Of a stretch of DNA of 64,000 nucleotides, positions 9,733 to 38,644 are shown piece after piece (within the stretch, counting starts at the first letter, position 1; every line of letters begins with the position of its first letter). Origin of the DNA: Acidobacteriota bacterium (GTDB lineage Bacteria > Acidobacteriota > Terriglobia > Terriglobales > Acidobacteriaceae); NCBI GenBank assembly GCA_003225075.1, contig QIAP01000041.1, positions 1-64,000 on the forward strand. The letters run 5' to 3'. A model generated the notes under the pieces. It saw only the letters and a program-made list of their open reading frames with translations. It was not told the origin of the DNA and did not search any database. A program made the position numbers and the translations under genes.

Positions 9733-9744
9733 GGCCGCGGCCGC

Positions 9745-11067: not shown

Positions 11068-11286
11068 ACGAACGCCTAATCCTCGATCACTGCGCGCCAC
11101 CTGATTGGTGCTGGCTCATGGAAGAGCCTTCATTCAGGTCTCATTTTCAATAATTTAGATCGGCTGCCTGAATATGAAGAATCATTCCTCGCGAGACTGC
11201 TTGAGCACCGGGGTGCACACGCGAAGGAGGTTTCCTCCCGAATAGAGGAAAATAACAGGTAGTATTTAAACTGTCGAGCTTGCTTT

Positions 11287-17026: not shown

Positions 17027-17093
17027 GTCTGAGCGAGACAACGGCCGACAATTATTCGGAACAAACAATCCGAGCCTGCATTCCAAACCAATA

Positions 17094-21632: not shown

Positions 21633-21641
21633 ATCCGTGAA

Positions 21642-21647
21642 CCTCCT
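21642..21647 (-). promoter_or_regulatory. Ribosome binding site that decides the TTG start of sat-cysC
   Basis: AGGAGG on the minus strand, nine bases before TTG 21632. No comparable site precedes the upstream ATG. Confidence 0.6.
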
Positions 21648-22125
21648 GGGTTCGGTTGTGTTCCAGACTTCTATTTTTGCCTGGATAAATTCCAGACGAT
21701 ACGAATGGTTTAACTTGCAGAACTGAGGGGAAGGCGTTTTTTCCTGCCAAAGTGCTGCTTCCAACGCCGGCGAACAGAATTTTGCTTGGTTGGACTGCGT
21801 TAAGTCAAATGGACTGCAATTCAGATACCTTCAGAGGAGTTCGCGTTCGAGTTATCGTGCTAAGAACTAAGGATTTGTAGATTTTATCATCGCCTGGCGT
21901 TGTGCAGGTGAGACCAGGTGAAAAAGTTTGCGTTAAAGTTGGTCGGATTGCCTCGAGGGGGGTTAACGGATGATGCCAATTTTTGCAACTCAGCACGGGC
22001 GGTACCAAGATGACACTCGGTTGTGGATGTCACCAGAGACCAGTTCCTCCCATAGTATTCTGGATTGGAAGTAAGGTGGCCGCGGGATGCCGGTTCCGAC
22101 TCAGTGCCAGGTTACTGAATAATTG
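21648..22125. other. Divergent intergenic region between sat-cysC and the second deacetylase
   Basis: About 480 bases that must hold promoters in both directions. Part could be read as an N-terminal extension of sat-cysC but has no similarity to the family. I see no RNA gene or clear operator. Confidence 0.5.
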
Positions 22126-23118
22126 ATGCTTAAAAATTGGATGCAACGGGGCTTAGTCGGTAGCGGGGTCACACGGTTGGCAGGACGGCTGGCAGGACCA
22201 GGAGTCGCCATCCTTATGTATCACTCGGTGATGGACGATCCGTTGCAAGCCGCCAGCACTCTAGGCGGTATCGTCCATTCGACGAAGGTTTTTCGCGAGC
22301 AAATGGAACTGATTGCTCGCGATTACAATACCCTGACTTTGGCTGATGTTTTGCTTTTTGTGCAAGGGGAAAAGGAACCTCCGACCCGGTCGGTGGCAAT
22401 TACCTTTGACGATGGGTACGCTGACAACTTCGAAGTCGCTATGCCGGTGCTCGATCAAACTGGCGTACCCGCCGCTTTCTACGTGGTGGTGGACTGTGTC
22501 GAAAACGCGAGACTGCCCTGGCCTGCGCGACTGCGTTATGCGTTCTACACCACAAAGAAGAGCACTTGGGCGGAATCGAATGGAACTCTCTGGCCGTTGA
22601 AGAGTTTCGAGCAGCGGGACGGCGCCTTTCTGAAGGCCTGCGATGACTGTTGCCAACTGGCGGGCGCAAGGCAGGAACAATTCGTGAGCGGGATCGAGCG
22701 TGACCTGGATGCGGAGTTTCGCTCTGCCGAGAACCCCATGATGACCTGGGACCAACTGTGCGGACTCACACGAAGGGGTCATATCTTGGGTTCGCATACC
22801 ATGACACATCCCAACATGGCGTACCTGCCCGACGCAGATTTACAAATTGAGTTTGCTGAATCGAAGCGCAGTTTGGAAGAACGTCTAAACTCGCCGATAG
22901 ATCATTTTTCCTATCCGTGTCCAGCGCTCTCTCCGCACTGGCGCGATCGAACGGTCGAAGCGAGTGCTCAAGCCAAGTACCGTACTGCCGTGACCACGAA
23001 TGGAGGTCCAGTTCGCAGGAACCATAATCCACTCTGCCTGCGTCGTGTGCGTCCCACGAAAGACATTGAGGGGCTACGGTGGAATCTGGAATGCACATTC
23101 CTGGGGCGCTCGGTATGA
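22126..23118 (+). CDS. Polysaccharide deacetylase family protein (second copy)
   Basis: About 330 residues from ATG 22126 (TTG 22123 is adjacent). NodB-type motifs: ILMYHSV, TFDDGYADNFE, LGSHTMTHPNMAYL with the two His metal ligands, and FSYPCPALS. A long insert lies between the TFDDG and SHTMTH motifs. It has no signal peptide. Sequence and insert differ clearly from the deacetylase at 17094, so this is not a recent duplicate. The stop overlaps the next start (ATGA at 23115-23118), so it is translationally coupled to the FemAB-like gene. Deacetylase-FemAB pairs are typical of EPS loci associated with exosortase systems. Confidence 0.9.
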   Translation: MLKNWMQRGLVGSGVTRLAGRLAGPGVAILMYHSVMDDPLQAASTLGGIVHSTKVFREQMELIARDYNTLTLADVLLFVQGEKEPPTRSVAITFDDGYADNFEVAMPVLDQTGVPAAFYVVVDCVENARLPWPARLRYAFYTTKKSTWAESNGTLWPLKSFEQRDGAFLKACDDCCQLAGARQEQFVSGIERDLDAEFRSAENPMMTWDQLCGLTRRGHILGSHTMTHPNMAYLPDADLQIEFAESKRSLEERLNSPIDHFSYPCPALSPHWRDRTVEASAQAKYRTAVTTNGGPVRRNHNPLCLRRVRPTKDIEGLRWNLECTFLGRSV

Positions 23119-24434
23119 AGGGTGAGGTGCCCGAGCTAACGGTTCGTGTGTATCACGATCTCGATGTTTTGCGGACCTTGGTTCCTGCCTGGGATGAGTT
23201 GTTGTCTGTATATCCCACAGCAACCATGTTTTGTAGCTGGGAATGGCTTTCTTCATGGTGGCGAGCGTTTGGCGGAGCGCGTCAACTGCTGGTACTGGCG
23301 TTTTACGATCGATCCCCAAACAATCAGGGCAAGCTGATTGGGCTGGCTCCTTTATCCGTAGAACGGCATCGCATCGCAGGCCCAGCCTGCTTGCGGAAGA
23401 TTCGCCTGATGGGAGACGGCAGCGGTGATTCGGACAATCTGGACATGCCGGTTCGGCCTGGTTGGGAAAAGCAGTTTGCAGTCGCGCTTCATCGATATCT
23501 TAGCGATCAGAAGAGCCTCTGGGATTTTTGCGAGCTGAATACGTTGCCGGCTGATTCTCCCGGCGCGGAAAGCCTTCGCCGATACTTGCAGACTCAGCGG
23601 TGGCATGTATTGCAGTATCAACGGGTCGCGTCAGCGATTGCTTTACCCGACAACTGGGAAGGATATCTTCGTCAGCTTTCGAGCGAAGATCAGAAGAACC
23701 TCAGCCGCTACGCACGGCGGTTGGAGAAGCGTTATCAGACGCGCATCTATCGCTGCACACAGGAGAGCGAGTTAGCTGCGGTTCTCGAAGCACTATTCCA
23801 ATTGCATCAGGAGCGCTGGCAGGCTGCCGGGGAAGCGGGCAGCTTTGCATCTGAGGAGCGCAGACGCTTTTACTATGACTTGAGTCGTTTGCTTCTGGCG
23901 CGGAGCAGTCTGGAACTATGGGCGCTGGAACTGAATGGGAGGATTGCCGCGGTGCAGTACGCCTTTCGCTACGGGAAGACGGTGTTTCAGCTTCAGGAAG
24001 GCTTTGATCCAGAGCGTTCGTCGGACCGCGTCGGTTTCGTACTGCGGGGACACGTGATGAAGCAACTTATCGAGGAAGGCGTACGAAAATATGACTTTCT
24101 TGCGGTCGAGCCTGGCTATAAGGCGCGCTGGTCAGCCCAAGTGGGGCATTATGTGAATTGTCATTTCGCCCGGCCGCTCACTTTAGGAAGTGGATATCTG
24201 AGTGCCGTACACAACGCAAGAGCGGGGAAGGAATGGCTGCGAGGGAATGTTCCAGAATCGATCTGGAATTTGCTGCATAGAGTGAACGTCGGGGTGCGAG
24301 GTAAATCGTCCCGGGAGGTGGAGCCCAAGATAGCTGAACCAGAGGCCTCATCACCGCAAACCGCTCAGTCGAATCCGATCAAGCAAGCCGAGGGTGGGAA
24401 GATAGCGGTGGATGTCGACAAGCAGTCGCGTTGA
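23115..24434 (+). CDS. GNAT-fold FemAB/CelD-like acyltransferase
   Basis: About 439 residues from ATG 23115, which overlaps the preceding stop in an ATGA; a start at 23079 would read back into the deacetylase gene. The fold is recognisable from FCSWEWLSSWWRAFGG in the N-terminal half and, in the C-terminal GNAT half, LELWALELNGRIAAVQYAF, KTVFQLQEGFDPE and G-VLRGHVMKQLIEEG--KYDFLAVEPGYKARW. This is the Acetyltransf_6 (CelD/BcsL) group, related to the FemAB-family proteins of EPS/PEP-CTERM loci. It likely transfers an acyl or aminoacyl group to a glycan or lipid carrier; the substrate is unknown. The tail of about 50 residues is polar and low in complexity. Confidence 0.85.
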   Translation: MKGEVPELTVRVYHDLDVLRTLVPAWDELLSVYPTATMFCSWEWLSSWWRAFGGARQLLVLAFYDRSPNNQGKLIGLAPLSVERHRIAGPACLRKIRLMGDGSGDSDNLDMPVRPGWEKQFAVALHRYLSDQKSLWDFCELNTLPADSPGAESLRRYLQTQRWHVLQYQRVASAIALPDNWEGYLRQLSSEDQKNLSRYARRLEKRYQTRIYRCTQESELAAVLEALFQLHQERWQAAGEAGSFASEERRRFYYDLSRLLLARSSLELWALELNGRIAAVQYAFRYGKTVFQLQEGFDPERSSDRVGFVLRGHVMKQLIEEGVRKYDFLAVEPGYKARWSAQVGHYVNCHFARPLTLGSGYLSAVHNARAGKEWLRGNVPESIWNLLHRVNVGVRGKSSREVEPKIAEPEASSPQTAQSNPIKQAEGGKIAVDVDKQSR

Positions 24435-24441
24435 TATATTT

Positions 24442-25320
24442 CTACCCGCCGGAGCGGACAGTTTCATCTTGTTGCGAAGATAGCGCGGCCTGTTCTGTAC
24501 TCAGCTTGTACCCAAGATTTTGCATGGCGGCACCCCAGGGAGACTCAATTTCAGCCACTGATCTGGGTGAAAGTTCAGACTTCCATCCGCCAGCGGAGGC
24601 CGCGCGCACAAATGGTTTGTCCTGACGAGTGCTTCTGGTCAACGCCCAATGATGAGATTGGCGCTTTTCCAAAGCCCTCATATGGTCCGCGGAACTCAGT
24701 TCGACCGCTGTTCGCAGCCTTTCGGGGGTTGCTTCGAGATCTAAGAGTGAAGCCACCCTGGCCAGTTCAAGTTCGGTTCGGGCAAGCATATCCTCGTAGC
24801 GCAATAGCACGAAATTTCGCTGACCTTCTCGCATTGCCGTCCAACTTCTCACGTGATCGATCCATGAGGCGGCCCACCCCCATTGAATGTCGAACTCTGC
24901 CGCAATAAAGCGAGGAACAAATTTCTCGATGGGATAGTCCTGGGAAATGCTTTTGCGCTTAATCGCATAGTGATAATAGGAGACGGCCACGTCGCGTGGA
25001 TCGCGGACGATATAGATGATGCGCTGGTAGCGTGGGTCGAAAGACTCGTGACTCTTGAGAATGCGTGGGCGATCGAGAGCGCGCAAAACCCGATCAGGAA
25101 ACAGATAGATTTCGGGGATGCGCGATTCGACATTCGCGAACGTAATGGGGTCGTCCTGATAAACAAGGTTTCCGATCAGGAAGCGGGCCCAGGTGTTACC
25201 TGATCTGGGATACGACACGATGAATATGTCGTCAGGAAAAACTGTAAGCGCCCGCCCGGCAGGCTTCTTGCCAAGCAAAATCCGCCAAGCTTCTCCCAGT
25301 GCTCGAAACATCCTCGGCAT
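24442..25320 (-). CDS. PAPS-dependent sulfotransferase (distal copy)
   Basis: About 292 residues. The Sulfotransfer_1 fold is shown by the PAPS 5'-phosphosulfate loop SYPRSGNTWARFL, the 3'-phosphate site YIVRDPRDVAVSYYHYAIK, LLRYEDML and a C-terminal TRSTRQDKPFVR--GGWKSELSP where the RKG-type motif normally lies. Cytosolic; it moves sulfate from PAPS to a hydroxyl or amine of an unknown acceptor. The start ATG 25320 shares its first base with the upstream ATP-grasp stop (TGATG), so it is translationally coupled. It is clearly a paralogue of the gene at 26655 and is the last gene of the NRPS operon; it converges on the FemAB-like gene. Confidence 0.92.
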   Translation of the reverse strand: MPRMFRALGEAWRILLGKKPAGRALTVFPDDIFIVSYPRSGNTWARFLIGNLVYQDDPITFANVESRIPEIYLFPDRVLRALDRPRILKSHESFDPRYQRIIYIVRDPRDVAVSYYHYAIKRKSISQDYPIEKFVPRFIAAEFDIQWGWAASWIDHVRSWTAMREGQRNFVLLRYEDMLARTELELARVASLLDLEATPERLRTAVELSSADHMRALEKRQSHHWALTRSTRQDKPFVRAASAGGWKSELSPRSVAEIESPWGAAMQNLGYKLSTEQAALSSQQDETVRSGG

Positions 25321-26651
25321 CACTTTTCCTTTTTGGAAGCAATTCCAACTGAGCCTTCATGTTCTTCTGGTTTGCTGTAAGAACGAAACGGATCGCGAAG
25401 ACGAGCAGGCAACAGTCTCTTGGCCACAGACGCGGCGTCGGATGCAAAAACGTTCTTCACAGCACGACCCGCTTCCCAGATTGCCGGCCACGGATCAGCC
25501 AGGGACCACAAAGCATCACGGACTGGGGGCAAAAAGTCCATCGCTGAGCTCATCAAATCACGGCGCAGGGACGAAGCATTCAGCTTTAAAGACGCCGGCA
25601 GAATGCCGCGCACGCGGCGGATATAACCGGCGTCCCAGCGCCAGCGCATCCCCACAACGTAGGAAGAGGGCACCTGCGGCGTCTCATCGTGTGCGAGTTG
25701 CCATTGATAGAAAGGGAAATCGATGCCCGCCTGAATGGGCAGCGAGAGTGTGCCCCAGTAGCGTCCGTTGATTTCCATCAGCGCAGCCTGACCATCCGCG
25801 GGATTCCAGCGGAATTCGACCATGGCCGCGCCGTCCCATTCGATTTCCCGAAGTAAGTCGTGCGCTTTTTCGACCAGTTCCTGATTGAGTGGCTCGCTGA
25901 GGGCAAGGACGGCGACGCCTCCGGTGTGCGGATTTTCCTTCAGACGACGATGTTGGAATGCCGCGATTTGCTTGCCCCGGTGAATCAGGATTTCTATCCC
26001 TATACCCGCACCTGGGCAATATTCCTGCAAAATGGCGCCGCTGAGTTCTCCGGATTGCACGGCGTCGCCCAGCTTTTCGCGAGAATGGAAATAGCGAACC
26101 TTAAACAATTCCTGAGAACCCTTGCTTCGAGGCTTGGCGACCACAGGAAAACTAAGTGAATCCGCTATTTCTTCCAGATTGGCAGCCTCAGAAATGAGGT
26201 ACTCGCCCGGAACACGGATACCGCAGCGTTGGGCGATTTCCAAAGTAGTTTGCTTATTCAAAACCCGATCGACTACGAGTGGTGGCGGGCACGCCACATG
26301 GGTCAGTTCGCTCAAGTGATTGTAGTGAGATGAAATTGCCGACAGTGCTGCGTCGGTGGCTGGAATAAGCATGTCGACGTTGCTCTCGTGAATAAGCGAC
26401 GAAAGAGCGTCAACGAAATGATCCGGCGTCTCGCAGTAGCTTGGCAGGCGAACGAAGTGGGTGATCGCACGGGATGATATGCGCGGCTCCTGTGCAGATA
26501 GAGCTGCAACCATCACCGGAATATGGTGGCGATGCAGAGAACGCGCGATGGGCACACTGATTCGAGGCTCTACGCCTAAGACCAGGACCGGCTGCTTCTC
26601 AAGGGCCGTTTTCAAAATGTTGCCGCCAGGCGATTCAAATTCGGAAGCCAA
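25320..26651 (-). CDS. ATP-grasp carboxylate-amine ligase (single-domain copy)
   Basis: 443 residues. ATP-grasp signatures: VLGVEPRISVPIARSLHRHH at the pre-grasp Rossmann region, SFPVVAKPRSKGS for the ATP-binding Lys, VEFRWNPADGQAALMEINGRYWG with the metal-binding Glu and Asn residues. It resembles the predicted ATP-dependent carboligases of COG3919, which join a carboxylate to an amine via an acyl phosphate. The C-terminal 130 residues have no known domain. It is a paralogue of residues 1-400 of the protein at 27634 but lacks the fused phosphatase. Three bases separate it from the upstream sulfotransferase gene, and it overlaps the downstream one. Confidence 0.88.
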   Translation of the reverse strand: MASEFESPGGNILKTALEKQPVLVLGVEPRISVPIARSLHRHHIPVMVAALSAQEPRISSRAITHFVRLPSYCETPDHFVDALSSLIHESNVDMLIPATDAALSAISSHYNHLSELTHVACPPPLVVDRVLNKQTTLEIAQRCGIRVPGEYLISEAANLEEIADSLSFPVVAKPRSKGSQELFKVRYFHSREKLGDAVQSGELSGAILQEYCPGAGIGIEILIHRGKQIAAFQHRRLKENPHTGGVAVLALSEPLNQELVEKAHDLLREIEWDGAAMVEFRWNPADGQAALMEINGRYWGTLSLPIQAGIDFPFYQWQLAHDETPQVPSSYVVGMRWRWDAGYIRRVRGILPASLKLNASSLRRDLMSSAMDFLPPVRDALWSLADPWPAIWEAGRAVKNVFASDAASVAKRLLPARLRDPFRSYSKPEEHEGSVGIASKKEK

Positions 26652-26654
26652 TAT

Positions 26655-27515
26655 CTACGAACGAACCAGCGCAGTGTGTTCATCCGGGGCGGGCGGCGTA
26701 GTCGCGAGTTCGTATCCGAGCGTCTGCATAAGCGATCCCCACGAAGCTTCGATCTCTGCAACAGACTTGGCCGGAAGCGCGGAACGCCAGCCGCCAGCTT
26801 TGGCGTCCCGCACAAACGGTTTGTCCTGTCGCGTAGACTTGGTGAGTTGCCAGTCTTTCGCTTGCGATTTCTCCATCTTACGCATGTGATCTGCGGAACT
26901 TAACTCGACGGCACGCGCCAGGCGCGTCGGTGATGCCTCGAGATTAAGGAACGCGGCCACCTTGCTGAGTTCGCGTTGCGGATTCTCCAGCATATCTTCA
27001 TAGCGCAGCAGCAGGAACTTGCGATTGTGTCGCATGGCAAGCCAACTGGCTACGTTGTCGTACCACGATCCCCATCGTGGGTCAGCCAGCAGGCCGGAAC
27101 CGAAGGTTCCGCTCATGAACTTGGGGACAAATTCTTCAATAGGACAGTTATCCGGTAACAGCTTTACCTTGATGGAATAGTGATAAGCGGAAACCGTGAC
27201 GTCCCTGGGATCGCGGACAATGTAAATGACCTTCTTATACCTGGGATCGAAACAGTCGTGACTCTTGAATATCCGTGGCAAGCGGTGCAGTTGACGGTCG
27301 GAAAAAATGTAGACGGAAGGAATGCGGTACTCGATATTCGCGAATGTGACGGGCTCATCCTGATAGATCAGGTTGCCGAGCAGAAAGCGCGTCCAGGTGT
27401 TGCCCGACTTAGGATAGGAGACGATGAAAAGATCATCGGGAAAGACAGTCATGCGGCGGCCTGCGGGCATACGGTGAAGAAGAAAAGCAGCCGTCTGCTG
27501 CAGATGCGCAGCCAT
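26655..27515 (-). CDS. PAPS-dependent sulfotransferase (proximal copy)
   Basis: About 286 residues from ATG 27515; longer starts up to 27605 add a stretch not present in the paralogue. Motifs: SYPKSGNTWTRFLLGNL (5'-phosphosulfate loop), YIVRDPRDVTVSAYHYSIK (3'-phosphate site), LLRYEDMLENP and STRQDKPFVRD--AGGWRSALP. Closely parallel along its length to the sulfotransferase at 24442, so the two arose by duplication. The acceptor is unknown. It sits between the two ATP-grasp genes; the gap of 118 bases to the upstream gene may hold an extended N-terminus or just a leader. Confidence 0.92.
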   Translation of the reverse strand: MAAHLQQTAAFLLHRMPAGRRMTVFPDDLFIVSYPKSGNTWTRFLLGNLIYQDEPVTFANIEYRIPSVYIFSDRQLHRLPRIFKSHDCFDPRYKKVIYIVRDPRDVTVSAYHYSIKVKLLPDNCPIEEFVPKFMSGTFGSGLLADPRWGSWYDNVASWLAMRHNRKFLLLRYEDMLENPQRELSKVAAFLNLEASPTRLARAVELSSADHMRKMEKSQAKDWQLTKSTRQDKPFVRDAKAGGWRSALPAKSVAEIEASWGSLMQTLGYELATTPPAPDEHTALVRS

Positions 27516-27633
27516 CTCACGAACTCTGCTCTTCTTTTTCAAGATATGCTCCACCCGCCTATCCCCAGCGCGTATGACGACGAGGTTAATGCCTTTAAGT
27601 CCCAAGCCGGAAGAGGCACTCGCCGTTGTTTGT

Positions 27634-29493
27634 TCAAATTGAAACAGCGCTCTCTGATCTCAGTGTACTTCCAGCCTGCTGGGATATCAGCCCTTCCGCC
27701 AGCCTCTGAATACAAATTCGCAATACGGCATAACATTCCCGCGTGACTTGCAAGTTTCCGGTATATGGATCCGGAATCTCACGATAACGCAGGGGCCGGT
27801 CCGCATATGCGCTGAGCATGAATATTTTGTTTTTGGCGGCGGGGTAGAGTGCCAGCAATTCGGCCTTGTGCAAAAAATCCATGGCAAAGATGACATCTGC
27901 GCGTTCAACCATCTCTGGCGTCAACCGCTGGGCGCGATGCTCAGTTAAGGAAATACCGATCTCTTCTGATGCTAGCTGCGCCCAAGGGTGCGCCTCGCGG
28001 CCCGGAGTTGCGTGCAAGCCTGCGGAAAGCACGTGTATGCCCTCATCCTGGTTACGCTGAAACAGCGCCCGCTTGAACATGGCTTCAGCCATGGGGCTGC
28101 GCATGATGTTGCCGTGGCACACAAAAACGAAGGAACGCGCATTGGCAGGGACTCTGCGCTTGTTACCACCACGAATTCCAAGCATGTCCAGACATCGCAG
28201 CCTGGCGTATATCGAACCGATCGCTGGCCCCAGTCGGTGGTAAAGATCGCGATCTCGCAGGAGTTGCTTCGGTACAAGTTTGCGGGCGATCCACTTAAGA
28301 TCAGCTGCCGCCCACTCCCACAATGTGCGGCCAAGATCGGCCAGCGCAGGAATGGGATCAGACCAGGACCAGATGGCATCGCGAATAGCCGGTGAAAAAT
28401 CTCGCGGTAAACTGCGAAGCTCTCGCCACCGGCTATGCGCTGAGGCCATCGCTGAACCGGATCCAGCGAAGAGTTGATGAAGGCGCGTGATGTAGCCGGA
28501 GGTATAGCGCCACCGTGTTCCGACTTTGTACGAATGAGGAACCTGCACCTCTTGGTTGTGCGCAATTTGCCATTGATATGCCGGGAAATCCATCCCTGCG
28601 AGAATAGGCAATGAAGACGTACCCCAAAAACGGCCGTTCACCTCCATCAAGACCGCGGTGCCTTGTTCGGGGTCACGGCGGTACTCCACCATGGCAACGC
28701 CCTCCCATTCAAGAGCGCGCAATAGATCCAAGGAGGATTGAACCAGTCCCGAGTCCGGCTGCTCAGCAATGGCCATCACTGCCACGCCGCCAGTAGGGGG
28801 TGCTTCCTTCAATCGCCGATGCTGAAAGGTGGCAATCGCTTTCCCTTGATGCATCAGCATTTCAATTCCGACGCCTTCGCCAGGACAATACTCCTGAACC
28901 AGCACCGGTCCCAAAGACCTGTTCAGAGCTGCGGAAAGCTCCGCGAATTCATGAAAGTAGAGCACCTTAAATTTTCGGCCGCGGCACACGCTGGGTTTCA
29001 CCACCACCGGAAACCGGATCTCACCACGGAGAGCTTCCAATTGCTCGGCAGTGGAGAGCGTGTAAGTGAATGGCGTTCTAATTCCACACTCACGCGCTAC
29101 CTGGAGAGTGGTTCGCTTGTCGACAACGCGGTTGACAATCGCGGGCGGAGGACAGCCCGGGTTCAGCAATGAACTCAGCTGTTCGTAATGTTGTGTGATT
29201 GCCGCCAGCGAGGGGTCGTTGGTGGGAATCAGCATGTCGAACCCGCGCACTTGAATGAGGGAACGGAGCGCCTTGATAAACTCGTCCGGTGCCTCGTTAT
29301 TGTCCGGCAACCTATGAAAATCGTTAATGGCAGTCGAGTGCAGACGTGGTTCTTGGGCGATGAAGGTGGCTACTTCCACCGGAACTCCGATTCGGCGAAG
29401 GCTCCGGGCGATGGGCACAGTGACTCGTGTTGCGGCGCCGAGGATCAACACCGGCCGATGGTGGGCCGCTTCGCCCACGCGATGAGCCGCCAT
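27634..29493 (-). CDS. ATP-grasp ligase fused to low-molecular-weight protein tyrosine phosphatase
   Basis: 619 residues. Residues 1-400 are an ATP-grasp carboligase (LILGAATRVTVPIARSLRRIG, RFPVVVKPS, VEYRRDPEQGTAVLMEVNGRFWG), paralogous to the gene at 25320. Residues 450-605 are a complete LMW-PTP: the P-loop VCHGNIMRSPMAEAMF with nucleophile Cys459 and Arg465, LSAGLHATPGREAHP, and the general-acid loop IPDPYTGN. All catalytic residues are present, so phosphatase activity is expected. LMW-PTPs often regulate polysaccharide export kinases, but no BY-kinase is in the window. The start abuts the flippase stop (TAG-ATG) behind a strong AGGAGG, showing one transcript. The physical link of ligase and phosphatase is unusual. 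Confidence 0.9.
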   Translation of the reverse strand: MAAHRVGEAAHHRPVLILGAATRVTVPIARSLRRIGVPVEVATFIAQEPRLHSTAINDFHRLPDNNEAPDEFIKALRSLIQVRGFDMLIPTNDPSLAAITQHYEQLSSLLNPGCPPPAIVNRVVDKRTTLQVARECGIRTPFTYTLSTAEQLEALRGEIRFPVVVKPSVCRGRKFKVLYFHEFAELSAALNRSLGPVLVQEYCPGEGVGIEMLMHQGKAIATFQHRRLKEAPPTGGVAVMAIAEQPDSGLVQSSLDLLRALEWEGVAMVEYRRDPEQGTAVLMEVNGRFWGTSSLPILAGMDFPAYQWQIAHNQEVQVPHSYKVGTRWRYTSGYITRLHQLFAGSGSAMASAHSRWRELRSLPRDFSPAIRDAIWSWSDPIPALADLGRTLWEWAAADLKWIARKLVPKQLLRDRDLYHRLGPAIGSIYARLRCLDMLGIRGGNKRRVPANARSFVFVCHGNIMRSPMAEAMFKRALFQRNQDEGIHVLSAGLHATPGREAHPWAQLASEEIGISLTEHRAQRLTPEMVERADVIFAMDFLHKAELLALYPAAKNKIFMLSAYADRPLRYREIPDPYTGNLQVTRECYAVLRICIQRLAEGLISQQAGSTLRSESAVSI

Positions 29494-31062
29494 CTAGACA
29501 TCCTCCTGGTAAGTTTCCACCAGCGCGGCTGCAACCAGCTTATCGGCTTCCGGCTTCGCGCGCGGCGTTAACTGTTCGACGTGCAGAGCGGTATTGCTCA
29601 GGACCGCCCACATCAGTCCTGCTCCGTATACTACCGCTCCTACGAGCAAGTGAATCCCAAGTTGGCGGTATCCATGGGGCACGAACCAGCGCCGCATCAG
29701 AAGCAGCGCCAGCACCATCGGTGTGCACAGCGAAATCGGCAGCACATATGCTTGCCGCAGAAAAGTGCGCACTGGGACGCCGAGAACGTGAGAGAGATGG
29801 AACGGTAGAAAAAACAGCATGGTACAAGTTAGCGGAATCGCAGTACCAAGGGCATCGCCAATGATGCCGTAATGGCGCACTAAAAGAATGCTGAGGATCA
29901 GATTGGAGACGCCTTCAATCAGCGTGGCAATAGCCAACTTTCCGTGCCTGCCAATGCCGAAGAGAATGCGGCCGGAGGCGGCCTGCGCTAGTTGAATCGT
30001 GACAGGGATTACCAGGATTACCAGAACTGGATAGCTGGCAGCAACATACTTGGCGCCCACCCACGCTTCAATGACCGACTTCCCCAGAATGATAAGTACT
30101 GCCGACATAGGCAGCATGATGAGCGCGCACGCTCGGTTTCCCGCGATATATATCTTGCGCAGCCGATCCATGTTGCCAATTGCGTCCGACTGGCTGGACA
30201 TGGGTACGAAGATCTGTGCCAGACTGGAGACGACTTCAGTGGCGTAGTCGACCAAGCGCGAACCAATGGAGAAGTAGGTGATGGCCGCAGAGGAGAGAAA
30301 TGTCCCGATCACCAGGGCATCCGTTTTGAACCGCAAACGGCCGGCCAGAATGATCATGAATGTGACGCTGCTGTAGTTCGCCATTTTGCGGAAGGTGCCA
30401 CGGTCCACATAGCGCCACGCAAAGGGAATCGGCAGAATACGGAATACGATGGCGGCTCTCAGGATCGAGGTGAGTATCGGCAGGGCCACTGTGATCAAGG
30501 CAATGGTTAGCAGCCCGTAGCCGCGATTCAAGGTAATGACAATCAGCAGTGCGCGCAGCAGCGTGGAAACGATGTTGGTGAGGTTGAGAAAGTAAAAACG
30601 TTGCAAGCCTTCCAGAATCCCGCCATACACACCAAGCGGGAAGCCCAGCGCAACCGAGGCACCGACCATCAGGAACAGCCACCGCGCGGTTGTGAGGAAC
30701 GCTGGAGGTATTTTAAAGATGGAGTCGACGTAGAAGCTGCCGGCGATCGTGATGGCCAGCGTCAACAGCCCCACGCAGGTGTAGCTGAACAGGCTGGTGT
30801 TAATCAGTTTAGCCAGGTCTTCGTTATCGCTGGTGGCCGTGAACTTTGAAACGTATCGAATGATTGAGGAGCGGATGCCAAAATCAAAAAGCCCGTAATA
30901 GCCGGTTACGGAGAAGATGAGGACCCAAATGCCGAAGGCCTCATCTCCCAGACGGTGAAGGATGAAGGGAGAGAGAAAAATACCAACAAGCACGTTGACT
31001 GCAAGCCCGAACCAACTCGAACTGACATTTTTTATGATCTCGAGTTTTTCGAATTTGCGCAT
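29494..31062 (-). CDS. MOP-family polysaccharide flippase (Wzx-like)
   Basis: 522 residues with 12-14 predicted membrane helices and the typical N-terminal motif NVSSSWFGLAVNVLVGIFLSPFILHRLGDEAFGIWVL, split here between helices 1 and 2, followed by LFDFGIRSSIIRYVSKF. This matches the Polysacc_synt / MATE-like exporters that flip lipid-linked glycans or other amphipathic precursors across the inner membrane. The substrate is not readable. The gene lies between the Sfp-type transferase and the ATP-grasp fusion with essentially no spacing, so the product of this operon is probably exported as a lipid-linked or amphipathic conjugate. The C-terminal 30 residues are hydrophilic. Confidence 0.93.
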   Translation of the reverse strand: MRKFEKLEIIKNVSSSWFGLAVNVLVGIFLSPFILHRLGDEAFGIWVLIFSVTGYYGLFDFGIRSSIIRYVSKFTATSDNEDLAKLINTSLFSYTCVGLLTLAITIAGSFYVDSIFKIPPAFLTTARWLFLMVGASVALGFPLGVYGGILEGLQRFYFLNLTNIVSTLLRALLIVITLNRGYGLLTIALITVALPILTSILRAAIVFRILPIPFAWRYVDRGTFRKMANYSSVTFMIILAGRLRFKTDALVIGTFLSSAAITYFSIGSRLVDYATEVVSSLAQIFVPMSSQSDAIGNMDRLRKIYIAGNRACALIMLPMSAVLIILGKSVIEAWVGAKYVAASYPVLVILVIPVTIQLAQAASGRILFGIGRHGKLAIATLIEGVSNLILSILLVRHYGIIGDALGTAIPLTCTMLFFLPFHLSHVLGVPVRTFLRQAYVLPISLCTPMVLALLLMRRWFVPHGYRQLGIHLLVGAVVYGAGLMWAVLSNTALHVEQLTPRAKPEADKLVAAALVETYQEDV

Positions 31063-31063
31063 G

Positions 31064-31858
31064 TTAGCCAGTGCTCACGTCGGGCGCAGCAAGCGCCGAA
31101 CTTGTACTCCTTCCGATTTCTACAGCCAGAGCAGCGGCGTACCCGGGGGGCACTTCTAAATCGTGAAGTGACCAGCGTGATGCCTCATTGGCGTCCGGGC
31201 GAGTGCGCAAAAGCGCTGCGGGCTCGGCGGGCGAAAGTGATACATCAAACTGGTGCAAGGGAAGAGAAAGGCCTTCACCTCTGGCTTTGATGTACGCCTC
31301 TTTACGCGTCCAACAGTTAAAAAAACCTTGTCGTCTGTGCTCCGCGGGAAGGGCCCGTAGCGCAATACGTTCGCCGGCCGAAAAGAATCGCTCGGCAATC
31401 TCTTCAGTACTGAAATCCTGGCGCATCTTCTCCACATCGACGCCGACCTCGCGATTGCGGGCGAACGCGCAAACAATCACGCCATCACTATGAGACAAGT
31501 TAAAAGTCAGGATACCTGGGTTCTTGGCTTCTTCCAGACGAGGCTTGCCATATGCGGAATAGGTGAAACGCAATCCTGCCGCCGAACCACCCAAATAGGA
31601 TGCAAGCAGTGTCCGCAGCATGCCACGGCTTACGATGAATTCGTGGCGATTCTTATCAAAGCGAAATTTTGAAGCCCTCGCATTCTCGTCATCGGAAAGC
31701 AGCTCTTGAAATTGAGTAATGTAGCCGGCGGCTGAGGCTACGGACCCAACCCAAACGTGGACTTCGTGTTCGCCCGGCGGGTGCAACCGGGAACTGGGAC
31801 CCGCCATGGCAAACTGTGAAACGCAGAGGCTGATGGCGTTGGGAACCAGAGTGGCCAC
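31064..31858 (-). CDS. 4'-phosphopantetheinyl transferase, Sfp type
   Basis: 264 residues from GTG 31858; ATG 31807 (residue 18) is a plausible alternative because family members start close to the VHVWVG strand. Motifs of the Sfp group: FNLSHSDGVIVCAFA, VGVDVEKMR with the Mg-binding Asp and Glu, and FFNCWTRKEAYIKARGEGLSLPL. The enzyme converts apo carrier proteins to the holo form using CoA. It follows the NRPS stop by three bases, so its target is almost certainly the PCP domain (Ser1029) of that NRPS. Downstream it is one base from the flippase gene. Confidence 0.93.
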   Translation of the reverse strand: MATLVPNAISLCVSQFAMAGPSSRLHPPGEHEVHVWVGSVASAAGYITQFQELLSDDENARASKFRFDKNRHEFIVSRGMLRTLLASYLGGSAAGLRFTYSAYGKPRLEEAKNPGILTFNLSHSDGVIVCAFARNREVGVDVEKMRQDFSTEEIAERFFSAGERIALRALPAEHRRQGFFNCWTRKEAYIKARGEGLSLPLHQFDVSLSPAEPAALLRTRPDANEASRWSLHDLEVPPGYAAALAVEIGRSTSSALAAPDVSTG

Positions 31859-31861
31859 GGG

Positions 31862-34800
31862 TTACGCCGTCCTGCCGCTGGTCGCGGCCGTGGAAGAATC
31901 GTCCGTGGAGATTTCCGCTGCTTGCAACGATGTCTCCTGCGACTCGAGCAGCTGTTTCATCCGGGAGGCGAGCTTTTCGCCCATCACCCGGACGTAGGGT
32001 TCACGCAGCATTTCGACGTGAAGGAAGTTGACAATCTGAATTTCCACGCCACCCTCGGACCGGGCGCCCCAACCCATCTTCGGATCATTTACGTAGTAGA
32101 AAGGCTGCTTCGGCTTTTTAAACAATAGGACAGGAGCGCGAAAGCGAGGCGCTGTGAATCCATCGCCAGGCCAGTAAAATTCTCGCCAGTCGCTGCGTAC
32201 TTCCGGCATACCCGACTGAGCAATGCTGCGAAAATTCTTTCGCAACGCCTTCTTCCACAACTTCAATTTGTTTACCAGATGCATATTCCGCAGAGAACGC
32301 AGCCGCTCCTGGTAGTAATGTATGTGCCAGAGCCATGGTACTTGACTGTTTTGAAGCACCCAAGTGTCAAGGATGACAAACAAACCCACCTCTAGACCCT
32401 GGGCTTCGAGATCAAGCACGATTTGCTCTGCGATCTGCACGCCTTCACACATGCCACCGAAACAATAAGGACCTTGCGGCTGCACGGCACGCATGGCCGC
32501 TATGTATTCCTTTGCGAGACCCTGTAACTCCTCTTTGGTAAAAGGACGGTCCCCCACCAGAGGCGCATTAGCCTGCAACTTGTAGAATGGCTGCTCAACG
32601 CCCATGTGGCGCGCCAATAGCGCGTAGCCGAGAGTATCCACTCCGGGCGACGCCACCGCGAAGAACGGCAAGTTCCCATTGCCGGCCTGGATCTGGGTCA
32701 GAATCGGATCGGGACCTGAAGCCGGGCCTTCGCGAATCAGTTGCGCCAGCGACTCAATCGTAGCGCCGCGAAAAAGTGCGGACAGTGGAATCGGATGGCT
32801 TGTAACCTTCTCCACTTCGGAAAGCAAACGTGCCGCCAACAAAGAGTGTCCGCCCAGATCGAAAAAGTTATCGCGGATGCCGATTTTTGGAATGCCGAGC
32901 ACGCGCTGCCAAATATCGACCAGCAACTGTTCCAGCGAATCACGTGCGGGGACCAGGTTAACCGCGTCCAATGGCAAAGCATCAGGTGCAGGTAGAGCGC
33001 GGCGATTCACCTTGCCGTTCGGCGTAAGCGGGAGTTCGTCCAGAGTGATGAAAGATCCCGGCACCATATATTCGGGCAGACTCGACTTCAGAAATGCGCG
33101 CAACTCATCATTCGAAATCTTCTCGCCGGGTGCCAACACCAGATAAGCGACCAGGCGACGGTCCCCGGGTTTGTCCTCACGAGCGGCGACGACGCATGAC
33201 CGCACTGCGGGATGGCGCGCCAGCAAAGACTCAATTTCTCCCAATTCAATACGATAGCCGCGAATCTTCACTTGGAAATCCGCCCGCCCTAGAAACGAAA
33301 TATTTCCCTCAGGAAGATAGCGAGCCAGATCACCTGTCCGGTACAGCTTGCTCTTTGTATCGCGAGCGAACGGATTAACCACAAACTTTTCCGCTGTCAG
33401 TTCCGGCCGGTTCAGATATCCACGCGCCAGACCATCGCCGCCGATATACAATTCGCCGGCTACACCGACGGGAACCGGTTCCATTCGCGAATCCAGAATG
33501 TACATCTGGGTATTGGCGATTGGCTTCCCGATGGGTACCGTTCCGCTTTCGCCTGACAGAACCCCATGCACCGATGAGTAGATCGTGGTCTCAGTGGGTC
33601 CATACATGTTCCATAACGATTCGCAGCGTGGAAGCAGTTGCTCCGCTAACTCACGCGGAAATCCTTCGCCGCCGCAGAGAACTTTCAATTTTGAATTGCC
33701 CTTCCAGTTCGCGTCCAATAGCAATCGCCAAGTTGCCGGCGTGGCTTGCATGACAGTAACGCGGCACTGCTCCATCAGCCGGGCTAGGAGTTTTCCGTCG
33801 GTGCATTCTTCGCGGCTCGCCACCACCAGGCGCGCCCCCGTAGTCAGTGGCAAGTAGAGCTCCAGCCCTGCAATGTCGAAGGAGAGAGTAGTTACCGCCA
33901 GCAAGACATCTTCGGGCAGTAGGCCGGGAACCTGACGCATGCTGGTGAGGAAATTGACCACGGCGCGATGTTCAATTTGAACGCCTTTGGGTTTTCCCGT
34001 GGAACCGGAGGTGTAAATCACATAGGCGAGATCATGCGCAGTGGACTGTGGCGGCAGATTTTCTGTACTTTCTTTGCTGATCTGATTCCAATCAGTGTCC
34101 AGAAGAATCAGTGCTTCAGATATTTTTGGCAAATTCGGGAGTAGCGACTGCTGGGTCAGAAGCACGGGAGCATGCGCATCCTCCAAGATATATGCAACTC
34201 GATCCTTGGGATACGCCGGGTCAAGCGGCACATAGGCTCCGCCTGCCTTGAGCACGCCGAGCACTCCCACAACCATGTCCAGCGAACGCTCAGCGCACAG
34301 ACCTACAAGAACGTCGGGGCCAACGTCGGCTTTTTTAAGGTAATGCGCTAACTGATTCGCCCTTGCGTTCAGTTCACGATAGGTCAAATGATGATTTTGA
34401 AAGACAATTGCTACTGCTCCAGGCGTGAGCTCAGCTTGCCGCTCGATCAATTGCTGAACGCCCACGTCGGGATAGGAAGCCGCGGTACGGTTCCACTCAA
34501 TCAGGATTTTCCGTTTCTCCGATTCAGTCAGCAGCGGCAGTTGCGAAATCGGCCGCTCCGGATTCTCGATCACCCCTTGCAGCAGTCGCTGGAAATGCTC
34601 CGTCATGCGCGAGATTGTGGACTCATCGAATAAGTCGGTGTTGTATCCAAACCTGGCCCTTAACCCGTCTTCGCTTTCACACATCGTGACCGTGAGATCG
34701 AATCGTGCGGTGCCGTTCTCCCCTTCGATCGGGCTTACGATCAACCCGGGCACGCTCGAGTCTTCTTGCGGGACCGTCCGTAACTCAAACATGATTTGGA

Positions 34801-35929
34801 ACAAAGGATTGCGGCTCAGGTCGCGTTGCGGTCGCAATTCCGCGACGAGTTTTTCAAAGGGAATCTCGTTCGCGGAGGCGTTATCCGCCGTCGCGCGAAC
34901 TCGGTGTAGCAGTTCTATGAAGCTGGGATCGCCAGACAAATCGTTGCGCTGAACCAGCATGTTCTCGAATAGCCCGATCAGTTCTTGCGCTTCAAGCAGG
35001 TCGCGATTGGGCGTGAGCGTGCCCACCACAATTTCATCTTGACCGCTATAGCGGTACAGAAGCACATTAAAAGCCGCCAGCAGCGTTACGAAAAATGTGA
35101 CGCTCTCGCGACGGCTCAGTTCCCGCAACCCGTGCGCCAGCGAGTTCTCAAATGCAACCCACTGGCTCGAGCCACGAAACGTCTGCACCGGCGGCCGAGC
35201 GTGACCGGTTGGTAATTCGACGCCTGAGGGAGTTGAGGCAAGGTTTTGCCGCCAATAGGAGAGTCGCTGTCTGAAATTCTCCTCGTGGCTGGAGCGGCGT
35301 TGCCAGATCGCATAGTTCGCATATTGCGCCGGGAGTTCGGGAAGGCGCGAATTATCTCCGGCCGTGAAACTCCTATAGACTGTCGTGAGTTCTCGCAGCA
35401 GAATATCCACTGACCAGGAATCGAAAACAATGTGATGTAGGGTCAGCAACAAAACATGATCTTCGCTGGCAATTCGAAGTAGCGAGGCCCGGATCAGGGG
35501 GCCGTGAGTCAGATCGAATGGTCGTTTTGCCTCTTCGCGGACAAAGTCGTGGATGTGGGAGTCGCATCGGTGGGCAGGAACGCTGCCTATATCGCTAAGG
35601 ACGAGACGCATCGGACTCGCCGAGGAAATGACCTGTGTGGGCTGGCCCTCAACAGTGTGAAATTGCGTCCGCAGCACTTCATGCCGCCGGATGATTTCAT
35701 TGAGACTGTGTTCCACTGCTGCGATGTCAAGAGCGCCTTCCAGGCGCAATGCGACTGGGATGTTATGTGCGGCGGTGTTCGGCTCCAATTGTTCCAGAAT
35801 CCAGAGTCGCTCCTGGGCAAAGGAGAGCGGAACGCGCTGGGGCGCGCTGTGCTCCAGTCGCAGAGCCTGCAACCGTATCCCGGTTTTCTGAGTCTCTGAT
35901 GGGTCCATCATCTCCACGACCTTAAACAA
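31862..35929 (-). CDS. Single-module nonribosomal peptide synthetase, C-A-PCP-TE, with Cys-type thioesterase
   Basis: 1355 residues (TTG 35929; ATG 35911 is an alternative with AAGG upstream). Order: condensation domain, about 30-460, with active-site HHIVFDSW (His165, His166, Asp170); adenylation domain, 470-985, with YIYTSGSTGKPKG-like A3 loop, NMYGPTETTIY, YRTGDLAR and NGKVNRR; PCP with LGGHSL (Ser1029); thioesterase from about 1085. My hand alignment of the pocket gives D-I-L-Q-L-G-M-I-Y-K, close to the known glycine code. In the thioesterase the GxSxG motif reads GGMCEG: the nucleophile position is Cys1161 (TGT, 32447-32449), with His1304 as candidate base. The N-terminal C domain has no partner carrier in the operon, so its donor must come from elsewhere. 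It is the first gene of a seven-gene operon. Confidence 0.95.
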   Translation of the reverse strand: MFKVVEMMDPSETQKTGIRLQALRLEHSAPQRVPLSFAQERLWILEQLEPNTAAHNIPVALRLEGALDIAAVEHSLNEIIRRHEVLRTQFHTVEGQPTQVISSASPMRLVLSDIGSVPAHRCDSHIHDFVREEAKRPFDLTHGPLIRASLLRIASEDHVLLLTLHHIVFDSWSVDILLRELTTVYRSFTAGDNSRLPELPAQYANYAIWQRRSSHEENFRQRLSYWRQNLASTPSGVELPTGHARPPVQTFRGSSQWVAFENSLAHGLRELSRRESVTFFVTLLAAFNVLLYRYSGQDEIVVGTLTPNRDLLEAQELIGLFENMLVQRNDLSGDPSFIELLHRVRATADNASANEIPFEKLVAELRPQRDLSRNPLFQIMFELRTVPQEDSSVPGLIVSPIEGENGTARFDLTVTMCESEDGLRARFGYNTDLFDESTISRMTEHFQRLLQGVIENPERPISQLPLLTESEKRKILIEWNRTAASYPDVGVQQLIERQAELTPGAVAIVFQNHHLTYRELNARANQLAHYLKKADVGPDVLVGLCAERSLDMVVGVLGVLKAGGAYVPLDPAYPKDRVAYILEDAHAPVLLTQQSLLPNLPKISEALILLDTDWNQISKESTENLPPQSTAHDLAYVIYTSGSTGKPKGVQIEHRAVVNFLTSMRQVPGLLPEDVLLAVTTLSFDIAGLELYLPLTTGARLVVASREECTDGKLLARLMEQCRVTVMQATPATWRLLLDANWKGNSKLKVLCGGEGFPRELAEQLLPRCESLWNMYGPTETTIYSSVHGVLSGESGTVPIGKPIANTQMYILDSRMEPVPVGVAGELYIGGDGLARGYLNRPELTAEKFVVNPFARDTKSKLYRTGDLARYLPEGNISFLGRADFQVKIRGYRIELGEIESLLARHPAVRSCVVAAREDKPGDRRLVAYLVLAPGEKISNDELRAFLKSSLPEYMVPGSFITLDELPLTPNGKVNRRALPAPDALPLDAVNLVPARDSLEQLLVDIWQRVLGIPKIGIRDNFFDLGGHSLLAARLLSEVEKVTSHPIPLSALFRGATIESLAQLIREGPASGPDPILTQIQAGNGNLPFFAVASPGVDTLGYALLARHMGVEQPFYKLQANAPLVGDRPFTKEELQGLAKEYIAAMRAVQPQGPYCFGGMCEGVQIAEQIVLDLEAQGLEVGLFVILDTWVLQNSQVPWLWHIHYYQERLRSLRNMHLVNKLKLWKKALRKNFRSIAQSGMPEVRSDWREFYWPGDGFTAPRFRAPVLLFKKPKQPFYYVNDPKMGWGARSEGGVEIQIVNFLHVEMLREPYVRVMGEKLASRMKQLLESQETSLQAAEISTDDSSTAATSGRTA

Positions 35930-36823: not shown

Positions 36824-37594
36824 CTACTCTCCCCCGATACTGCGCTCCTTCGTCTTCAGCCCTTGAACATTTTCGTCCGCGCTAGAAGTAGGTGCCTTCA
36901 CTAGGCGTTCCTTCATCGAATACTTGAACAGGCACCACAGCGCGTGGAATCCATCTCTCCATCCGATTTTCTTTCCTTCCTCGTAAGTGCGGCCCCAGTA
37001 GCTGATGCCAACCTCGTAAATTCTGAGGCGGCGTTTGGCAATTTTCACCGTGATTTCCGGTTCGAAGCCAAAACGATCCTCCTCGATAGGGATGGATTGA
37101 ATTACCTCGCGGCGGAATACCTTGTAGCAGGTTTCCATATCGGTGAGATTAATGTTGGTCAAACAATTGGAGAGCAGGGTGAGCAACCAGTTACCCACTG
37201 AATGCCAAAAGTACAGGACCCGATGGGGACGTCCACCCAGAAAGCGGGAGCCGTACACCACATCCGCTTTGCCCTGGATCAGCGGGTCAATGAGAACGGG
37301 ATATTCAATGGGATCGTATTCCAGATCAGCGTCTTGAATGATGACATAGTCACCGGTTGCCTCTTGAATTCCGCGGCGAAGGGCGGCGCCCTTACCAAGA
37401 TTCTTCGGTTGCAGCAACGCTCGAATTTGGGGATGCCGATTCTGCAATTCGGCCAAAATCTCGCGCGAACCATCGCGCGAAAAGTCATCGACGCAAATTA
37501 CTTCGATTTCAAGGGGAACTGAAAGTACCTTGTCTACCAGGCACCGCAAGGTGGCGCGCTCGTTGTAAACCGGAATCACGACAGAGAGTTTCAT
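36824..37594 (-). CDS. GT2 glycosyltransferase, dolichol-phosphate mannose synthase-like
   Basis: 256 residues with a GT-A fold: [12 protein letters not shown] at the N-terminus, [45 protein letters not shown] (the DAD metal motif), YGSRFLGG and [12 protein letters not shown]. There is no C-terminal membrane anchor, as in DPM1-type enzymes acting on polyprenyl phosphate with a GDP- or UDP-sugar at the membrane surface. It stands alone, so its pathway is open; it could supply polyprenyl-linked sugar to the nearby surface-glycan genes. Confidence 0.92.
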
Positions 37595-38119
37595 TGCGAT
37601 GAATCAGAGTTTACTTGTACCCATTTAAAATAGCGCCCGTCGTATGACGGTGGTTTGTCGCAAGCAGTTCCAAGGTTTTATTACGACAATGGCGAGCCAA
37701 CTCCAGCGAGTCCTCCACGTCTCAATATAGTTGTGCTTTATAGTTGCGCTTCGGAATCAAAACGATTCGCATTTCGCAAGATGTAATTAGTTCCATTTCT
37801 GCCCGCATTATCGGAAATTTTGTCCTAATGTATTCACCCTAACCAGTGACTAATCGCGTTCAAAATCAATAGAGTTCTACCGCCCTCGATCAGGGTTCCT
37901 CGGAGCCACATCTGCGGTTGCGTTCTCATTCTTGAGAAAGTGCTGTCAATTAAAGAGCACCGGAAGTCGAGTTGGCAACACGGATGCTACCATTTTTGGA
38001 AGAAGCCGTATTCAACATTTAATTAAAAGTTGAACCATCCGGTCGAAACCGGCGATGGATTCGACAACTCTGTGATTACACAACCGCATGGCGAGCGGGA
38101 GAAAATCAGGGGAGGAGTG
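37595..38119. other. Long intergenic region upstream of the first mini-HTH pair
   Basis: About 525 A/T-rich bases between divergent genes, without a credible gene. Two perfect small dyads are visible: GAATC-N5-GATTC at 37754-37768 and CCGGT-N4-ACCGG at 38039-38052. Both are candidate operators; neither matches a site I can name. Confidence 0.45.
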
Positions 38120-38644
38120 ATGGGCGATATAGCAGTAGGATTGGGATTAGGGAGCCGCGAACAGCAGATTGTTGAACTATTACTTCAAGGCTGTGACAAC
38201 GAGGAAATCGCAAGACAGCTGAACATGGCCCGCCGCACTGTAAAAGCTTACTTCAACCGGCTATTCCTGCGATTCGGTATTACCACTGGAATCAAGCGAG
38301 TCAAGCTCGCAACTCTTTTGTATCGGAGGCAGTTATGTCTGGAGAAGAACGTCAGGGAGCTCTCACCCCCAATGAACGAGAACAGCAAGTCATCGCACTC
38401 GTTGCTCAGGGACTCAAAAATCGGGAGGTCGCAGATGCCATCGGAACCACCGAGCACGTCGTCAAGAACTATCTTCGTGGCATCTACGACAAACTCGGTC
38501 TCTGGAACCGCGTCGAACTCGCCCTCTGGTACGAAGCGCGCAAGAATGAACAGACGTTCCGCGCGTAATGTAGTGAGGGTATGGGAAAGCCGGATGATGG
38601 GATTGGGGAGGATGATGCTTCCCCAGCGATCGAACGCCAAGTGA
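38120..38644 (+). CDS. Stand-alone LuxR-type HTH protein, pair A first gene
   Basis: Start ATG 38120 behind GGGGAGGAG. Residues 10-72 form a GerE/LuxR-type DNA-binding domain (SREQQIVELLLQGCDNEEIARQLNMARRTVKAYFNRL, shown here in two parts: SREQQIVELLLQG and EEIARQLNMARRTVKAYF). No receiver or sensor domain precedes it. The close counterpart at 48424 stops soon after the HTH, but this frame runs on for about 100 low-complexity residues right through the next gene, which is read in another frame. The extension is therefore doubtful as functional protein. It is probably a small DNA-binding regulator acting with the gene at 38335. Confidence 0.75.
   Translation: MGDIAVGLGLGSREQQIVELLLQGCDNEEIARQLNMARRTVKAYFNRLFLRFGITTGIKRVKLATLLYRRQLCLEKNVRELSPPMNENSKSSHSLLRDSKIGRSQMPSEPPSTSSRTIFVASTTNSVSGTASNSPSGTKRARMNRRSARNVVRVWESRMMGLGRMMLPQRSNAK
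38335..38568 (+). CDS. Stand-alone LuxR-type HTH protein, pair A second gene
   Basis: 77 residues, ATG 38335 with GGAGG five bases upstream, a better ribosome site than most genes here. The whole protein is a GerE domain (LTPNEREQQVIALVAQGL, NREVADAIGTTEHVVKNYL, YDKLGLWNRVELAL). It lies wholly inside the longer frame of the first gene, in a different frame. It matches the second gene of pair B (48645) more closely than it matches its own neighbour, so the pair was duplicated as a unit. Predicted to bind DNA as homo- or heterodimer. Confidence 0.85.
   Translation: MSGEERQGALTPNEREQQVIALVAQGLKNREVADAIGTTEHVVKNYLRGIYDKLGLWNRVELALWYEARKNEQTFRA

Follow-up and report, generated by a model that had tools for sequence, protein, structure and literature searches.

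Few bacterial sulfated polysaccharides have their genes in hand. In the synechan (xss) cluster of Synechocystis PCC 6803 (PMC8205485), two sulfotransferases accompany a Wzx/Wzy-type assembly system with cytosolic modification of the repeat unit, and the XrtA/PEP-CTERM exosortase exopolysaccharide (EPS) loci (TIGR03108, TIGR03087, TIGR03013 etc.) combine stp1/stp2-type glycosyltransferases (GTs), an amidotransferase, an EpsB priming enzyme, an XrtA ATPase, a chain-length protein and an exosortase. In the present study we analysed a stretch of 64,000 nucleotides from the draft genome of an Acidobacteriota bacterium (contig QIAP01000041.1; hereafter the window), in which seven genes at 24442–35929 encode a non-ribosomal peptide synthetase (NRPS), a phosphopantetheinyl transferase (PPTase), a flippase, two ATP-grasp ligases and two sulfotransferases. 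Judged from gene content and order, the seven genes are the core of a larger, widely conserved soil-acidobacterial sulfated EPS locus of the exosortase-type Wzx/Wzy class. The locus resembles that of synechan in its two sulfotransferases, assembly type and cytosolic modification, but the part of the synechan account available to us describes no NRPS, ATP-grasp, 3′-phosphoadenosine 5′-phosphosulfate (PAPS) synthase, heparinase or exosortase, and the phylum is different. With the XrtA loci it shares all of the components listed above; however, the sulfation set and the NRPS are additions here, and several proteins fall below the XrtA equivalog cut-offs.

Dlt D-alanylation likewise charges a single amino acid for a polymer of the cell surface by means of an adenylation domain and a carrier, whereas here adenylation, carrier and thioesterase (TE) are joined in one NRPS chain and the window is without an MBOAT protein or DltD. 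To our knowledge, the NRPS AB3403 of Acinetobacter baumannii does not lie in a sulfated EPS locus. It has the same four domains, condensation, adenylation, carrier and thioesterase (C-A-T-TE), with a Gly-type A domain (PDB 4zxh/4zxi), and is the nearest PDB A core of the orthologue from the relative G048. The SulM/SulN sulfazecin pathway (PMC11298585) combines a Cys-type TE with a sulfotransferase, as here, but is multi-module, specific for diaminopropionate (Dap) and beta-lactam forming, with another TE motif and Asp position. The sulfated glycosaminoglycan-like EPS cluster of Pontiella (PMC7356697), proposed to make a bacterial N-sulfated hexosamine polymer and containing a linked sulfotransferase, is predicted only, and no NRPS is mentioned for it. 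Each protein family, and sulfated Wzx/Wzy EPS loci as such, are known; in the literature that we searched, however, no sulfated EPS locus was found to contain an NRPS module whose A domain is exchangeable, nor was an NRPS matched to any EPS locus. Within a single family of soil acidobacteria, the sulfated EPS locus is common. If the NRPS aminoacylates the polymer, it would allow glycans decorated with amino acids to be made enzymatically, and the specificity would be readable from the A domain. In that case, A-domain exchange in NRPSs could act on a surface polymer and not on a secreted peptide.

A preliminary description of the block had reported seven genes of named families, running in one direction with tight joints at most junctions, and this was borne out by open reading frame (ORF) and Pfam analyses. 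The minus strand carries all seven ORFs, with unchanged coordinates, and the joints along the direction of transcription are 3, 1, 0, 28, 3 and −4 bases. In this order, the genes encode a single-module C-A-T-TE NRPS with predicted Gly specificity (31862–35929; Pfam Condensation/AMP-binding/PP-binding/Thioesterase), an Sfp/HetI-type PPTase (31064–31858), a Wzx-like MOP flippase of the polysaccharide type, which served as the marker gene of the EPS locus (29494–31062), an ATP-grasp ligase fused to a Wzb-like low-molecular-weight protein tyrosine phosphatase (LMW-PTP; active site CHGNIMRS; 27634–29493), a PAPS-dependent sulfotransferase of the cytosolic SULT type (ST1; YPKSGNTW; 26655–27605), a paralogous ATP-grasp ligase without PTP (ATP-grasp 2; 25320–26651) and a second PAPS-dependent sulfotransferase paralogous to the first (ST2; 24442–25323). 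The assignments come from Pfam (Sulfotransfer_1 for ST1 and ST2), together with a predicted fold for ATP-grasp 2. The NRPS probably starts at ATG 35911 rather than at TTG 35929; ST1, judged against its orthologue, probably starts ~90 bases inside its ORF, and the 28-base joint would then become ~118 bases.

To place the block among its relatives, the flippase was searched for in 398 genomes of the family, giving a match in 127, of which ~67 were close orthologues (identity ≥48%). The named-genome scan yielded 67 loci, nearly all from Acidobacteria metagenome-assembled genomes (Terriglobales, Candidatus Sulfotelmatobacter and gp1), often with palsa, bog or fen as a label. Among the 32 loci that span 19 kb or more, a PAPS gene was found near the flippase in 27 and a sulfotransferase in 26, and most well-assembled relatives have heparinase, amidotransferase, deacetylase and UDP-glucose dehydrogenase (UGDH) genes at the locus. 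In G048, from another genus of the same family, the locus is collinear with the NRPS included, and G051 has the same locus as G048 with the NRPS absent; indeed, the flippase, the sulfotransferases and the ATP-grasp/PTP recur in many relatives without an NRPS, within the conserved EPS locus. The preliminary description had allowed for either a decorated glycan or an independent metabolite. The glycan is supported, whereas a self-contained seven-gene metabolite cluster was rejected as the leading interpretation because the other genes are found again and again in EPS loci that lack the NRPS.

An exosortase is present in all nine genomes checked and, in six relatives, lies on the locus contig, 37–50 kb off. 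In the window's genome it is found on contig C108, separate from the window in the draft assembly, which also encodes an EpsB-type priming transferase, a tyrosine kinase, an XrtA ATPase, a chain-length determinant and a ligase/Wzy-like protein (TIGR03097 score 69.6 bits, under the cut-off of 188). The flippase is the sole PF13440 protein on the locus contig in G182 (2.05 Mb) and G255 (0.5 Mb). Given the locus context, the gene set of C108 and this single PF13440 protein, the flippase is most readily interpreted as the Wzx for a sulfated EPS, with the LMW-PTP as a Wzb-like phosphatase.

The NRPS was detected at the EPS locus in at least 11 genomes of several genera among the ~67 with a close flippase, a lower bound since contigs break, and lies 5′ of the flippase on the same strand in 11 of 11 NRPS-positive loci. 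On this distribution the NRPS is an accessory of the EPS locus. A lack of joint conservation in relatives, which the preliminary description would have counted against its grouping, is seen for the NRPS in most genomes, but not in the 11 genomes that carry it. No Sfp-type enzyme other than this PPTase was found in the window's genome, and in G048 it is unlinked, so that it is probably a general helper. At other loci, the slot of the NRPS has further occupants. L183 carries there an 859-residue C-A remnant (7309–9888, plus strand) in an open frame, lacking SGSTG, carrier and TE, possibly a non-catalytic NRPS descendant. A protein of ~330 residues without a Pfam match sits between the flippase and CysQ, the slot of the NRPS elsewhere, in L085 (29–1021; G299) and L148 (8852–9847). 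Away from the slot, and on a different contig from that of the flippase, L132 (1–9156; G109, contig C26) encodes a 3052-residue NRPS whose TE is of the same Cys type (61% identity); a PPTase gene is linked to it.

We then examined the NRPS domains. The A, T and TE domains carry their core motifs in the window and in the full-length copies, and one NRPS module is present per locus, with no second module or partner synthetase encountered there. The EPS-linked NRPS of G048 holds the only C domain found in that genome; the window's genome has further C domains on other contigs. In the C-domain motif of the window, HHIVFDS, the HH and D are kept and the G is lost, and the second His of HHxxxDG is lost in seven of eight full-length EPS-linked C domains compared with four of 46 other acidobacterial C domains. 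The TE of the window has Cys1161 as its nucleophile (GMCEG), with Asp1188 and His1304. Replacement of Ser by Cys, with Asp at +27, the spacing of ordinary Ser thioesterases, and His at ~+140, was seen in nine of nine TEs examined. A fold search with the TE returned general thioesterases (Pks13 TE, AB3403 and EntF) at high root mean square deviation (rmsd), and hence no function was read from the fold. Two sets of candidate relatives were set aside: TE relatives of ~870 residues, at first taken as A-T-TE proteins without a C domain, have C-T-TE motifs and belong to other NRPS clusters, and class-level NRPSs with HQ/HL C motifs (G467 and G614) are located in ordinary NRPS clusters and not in the EPS slot.

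Among the A-domain codes, DLFNNALTYK (G351 and G415) is one that we take to be Ala, a paper search having given no confirmation. The code of the window, DILQLGMIYK, is a near-exact match to the Gly type, DILQLGMIWK (PMC12283262), which is carried by G048 and G377. DVWHFSLVDK, found in G255, G182, G229 and G151, is a Ser code (PMC3795760), and DFWNIGMVHK of G397 is a Thr code (PMC4169593). The positions follow GrsA numbering, confirmed from PDB 1amu. The nearest PDB A cores of the Gly-type domains are those of AB3403 and the 5u89 protein, in line with Gly, and the nearest core of the Ser-type domains fits the Ser reading. From the single module and these codes, the NRPS is predicted to load a single small amino acid.

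Comparison of the EPS-linked copies showed that A cores with the same predicted amino acid are 74% identical, and those with different ones 47%, whereas the corresponding values for the TE domains are 56% and 59%. For example, the TE of the Thr-type G397 is 79% identical with that of the Ser-type G255, and the TE of the Ala-type G351 is 72% identical with that of the Ser-type G229. In approximately unbiased (AU) tests, a Ser group was rejected for the TE tree (p 6e-9), as was, for the A tree, the G351+G229 pair seen with the TEs (p 2e-97); the p-values are descriptive because the groups were picked after the identities were known. Thus the A domains, but not the TEs, fall together according to the amino acid predicted for them, which indicates, at the level of sequence, A-domain swapping on one NRPS chassis at the EPS locus. 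Such swapping is known from peptide NRPSs.

The remaining enzymes of the block form paralogous pairs. The two ATP-grasp ligases are 51% identical, and the ST1 and ST2 genes share a 326-base stretch of 69% DNA identity, which makes this a duplication of an ATP-grasp plus sulfotransferase unit and not four unrelated activities. The region 24442–27605 reads as a tandem duplication of this unit, with the PTP domain missing from one ATP-grasp copy. On a short contig of G001, from the same genus, the fused ATP-grasp–PTP, one sulfotransferase and a FemAB-like gene follow each other in that order, as would be expected if the pair had been duplicated in the window. The ATP-grasp fold with conserved ATP/Mg residues is present. 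A predicted model of ATP-grasp 2 (pLDDT 86.6) matched the carbamoyl-phosphate synthetase (CPSase)-like 2pn1 (Z 26.0, rmsd 3.4, 290 aligned) and also PylC and L-amino acid ligase; the sequence itself gave no match in PDB, and no characterized protein closely related to it was found. The predicted model is informative for the fold but not for the substrate.

A second kind of amino acid activation was met at six other flippase loci, where a DltA-like adenylation domain lies 4–9 kb from the flippase. In all three loci examined in detail, a carrier-like protein of 92–93 residues without a Pfam match adjoins this domain, and in two of the three an MBOAT-like protein is nearby, that of L193 being closest to DltB. 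Stand-alone domains of this kind near the sulfotransferase and flippase of an EPS locus of this type were noted in L146, L163 and L193 (and G412, G257, G269, G245, G232 and G343). The occurrence of two unlike amino acid-activating systems in one type of sulfated EPS locus supports polymer aminoacylation as their common purpose. The scanned window genes include no separate DltA, DltC, DltB (MBOAT) or DltD, and G000 gave no strong match for a Dlt-like A domain. Mutual exclusion of the two systems was considered and dropped: they occur in 11 (NRPS) and nine (Dlt) of 67 genomes with one overlap (G151, on different contigs), which is not beyond chance.

Taken together, our results favour, with a probability of roughly 0.55, the seven genes being the decoration and flipping core of a sulfated EPS locus in which the NRPS loads one amino acid for the polymer. 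The NRPS would build no peptide. The PPTase would pantetheinylate the carrier and the A domain would then load glycine onto it, after which the TE or a partner enzyme would move the aminoacyl group, in the cytosol, onto a sugar within the lipid-linked repeat unit. Conceivable acceptors are an amine, a hydroxyl or, via ATP-grasp, a uronic acid carboxylate. Both sulfotransferases would sulfate the repeat unit, and the ATP-grasp enzymes may form a further carboxylate–amine bond, for example on uronic acid. The Wzx-like flippase would carry the unit outward; polymerization and export would fall to Wzy/Wzc-type machinery linked to the exosortase, whose genes lie in another part of the genome, with the LMW-PTP as the putative Wzb partner of the tyrosine kinase of that machinery. 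The A domain would be the exchangeable part that sets the attached amino acid (Gly, Ala, Ser or Thr). In this scheme we infer the aminoacyl transfer, its acceptor and the order of steps. More tentatively, the module may have turned into a glycan aminoacyltransferase, its C chemistry lost and its Cys TE performing the transfer, so that A-domain swapping changes the displayed Gly, Ala, Ser or Thr. Several elements of the preliminary description are supported, namely the amino acid bound to a carrier, sulfation, assembly in the cytosol and a lipid-type flippase for export, the window having its own PAPS synthase and CysQ-like phosphatase.

Several observations weigh against polymer aminoacylation. 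The deacetylases of the locus, if extracytosolic, would make a free amine out of reach of a cytosolic NRPS. As ATP-grasp, sulfotransferase and flippase also occur where there is no NRPS, it does not follow that they work directly with it, and the EPS block of C108 and the window sit on separate contigs of a draft genome. A domains generally cluster by substrate. In addition, the C domain of the window, with its HH and D, could still condense something, and TEs with the same Cys motif are also found in ordinary acidobacterial NRPSs, so that the Cys is no mark of glycan transfer. The HH and D kept in this C domain, together with the minority of loci that carry the NRPS, the similar C-A-T-TE proteins in ordinary NRPS contexts and a PPTase that looks general, would suit an NRPS merely lodged in the EPS locus that makes a separate small secreted metabolite, such as an N-acyl-amino acid, a dipeptide or a free aminoacyl ester. 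We consider this unlikely, as the position 5′ of wzx on the same strand holds in all 11 loci across several genera and the catalytic His is lost in seven of eight C domains; moreover, no co-occurring regulator or dedicated exporter was seen with the NRPS, Wzx-type transport alone being at hand. It is less probable still that the NRPS is decaying and without present function: degenerate C domains and the remnant in the same slot of L183 would fit, but full-length copies have intact A, T and TE motifs, and divergent copies keep canonical A-domain codes and have exchanged A domains.

Unlikely, too, is a route to a uronoyl-glycine amide in which ATP-grasp joins the carrier-bound glycine, as an amine, to a uronic acid carboxylate, after which the thioester is hydrolysed by the TE. 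UGDH and ATP-grasp are both encoded in the locus, the closest folds to that predicted for ATP-grasp are CPSase-like 2pn1, PylC and L-amino acid ligases, and a uronic acid–alanine amide is known in a bacterial capsule, as cited in PMC9676051. However, loci without an NRPS also have ATP-grasp genes, and ATP-grasp ligases normally use free amino acids, which would make the NRPS superfluous. A monobactam or beta-lactone type product, suggested by the combination of a Cys-nucleophile TE with linked sulfotransferases as in SulM (PMC11298585), is very improbable and was ruled out by the A-domain codes and the TE motif. The codes are for Gly, Ala, Ser or Thr and not for Dap, and Gly and Ala have no side chain able to close a four-membered ring; the Gln-Cys-Asn motif of SulM is absent, with Met-Cys-Glu instead; the Asp stays at +27 in all nine TEs, whereas it is relocated in SulM/ObiF (PMC11298585); and no Dap genes were seen.

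The surrounding genes of the window complete the locus. The convergent neighbour of the block encodes a FemAB/GNAT-like protein (Acetyltransf_6; 23079–24434, plus strand), next to the polysaccharide deacetylase DAC2 (22123–23118, plus strand), which in several relatives is instead adjoined by an ATP-grasp gene. Three minus-strand genes then encode a bifunctional ATP sulfurylase–adenosine 5′-phosphosulfate (APS) kinase, i.e. a PAPS synthase, which scored above the NCBIfam cut-off (19887–21764), a TauE/SafE family exporter (19001–19771) and an inositol monophosphatase family protein whose nearest model is CysQ, a 3′-phosphoadenosine 5′-phosphate (PAP) phosphatase (18163–18972). With PAPS synthase and CysQ-like phosphatase, the cell thus encodes both the synthesis of PAPS and the removal of PAP beside the sulfotransferases. 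Beyond these lie, on the plus strand, a second polysaccharide deacetylase, DAC1 (16917–18152), an asparagine-synthase-like amidotransferase nearest to that of the XrtA/PEP-CTERM system (15059–17026) and a GT4 glycosyltransferase that carries a fused heparinase II/III-like domain (11340–15056). G255 shows this fusion as well, whereas G051 and G122 encode the glycosyltransferase and the heparinase-like protein by two genes. A UGDH family protein for uronic acid supply (9745–11100) and a stp1-like GT4 glycosyltransferase of the XrtA system (8491–9732) are encoded on the minus strand. On the other side of the block, a GT2 glycosyltransferase (36824–37594, minus strand) forms a conserved right border, with 74–80% identity in several relatives. 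The sequence 38743–39975, without a Pfam match, and the small ORF region 38030–38644 are kept beside this GT2 in many relatives and, with an adjoining GAF protein, possibly represent a conserved locus border. At the right end of the window, 61894–63999 encodes a carrier-type protein (PP-binding at 62683–62877) with weak NRPS similarity that runs off the window.

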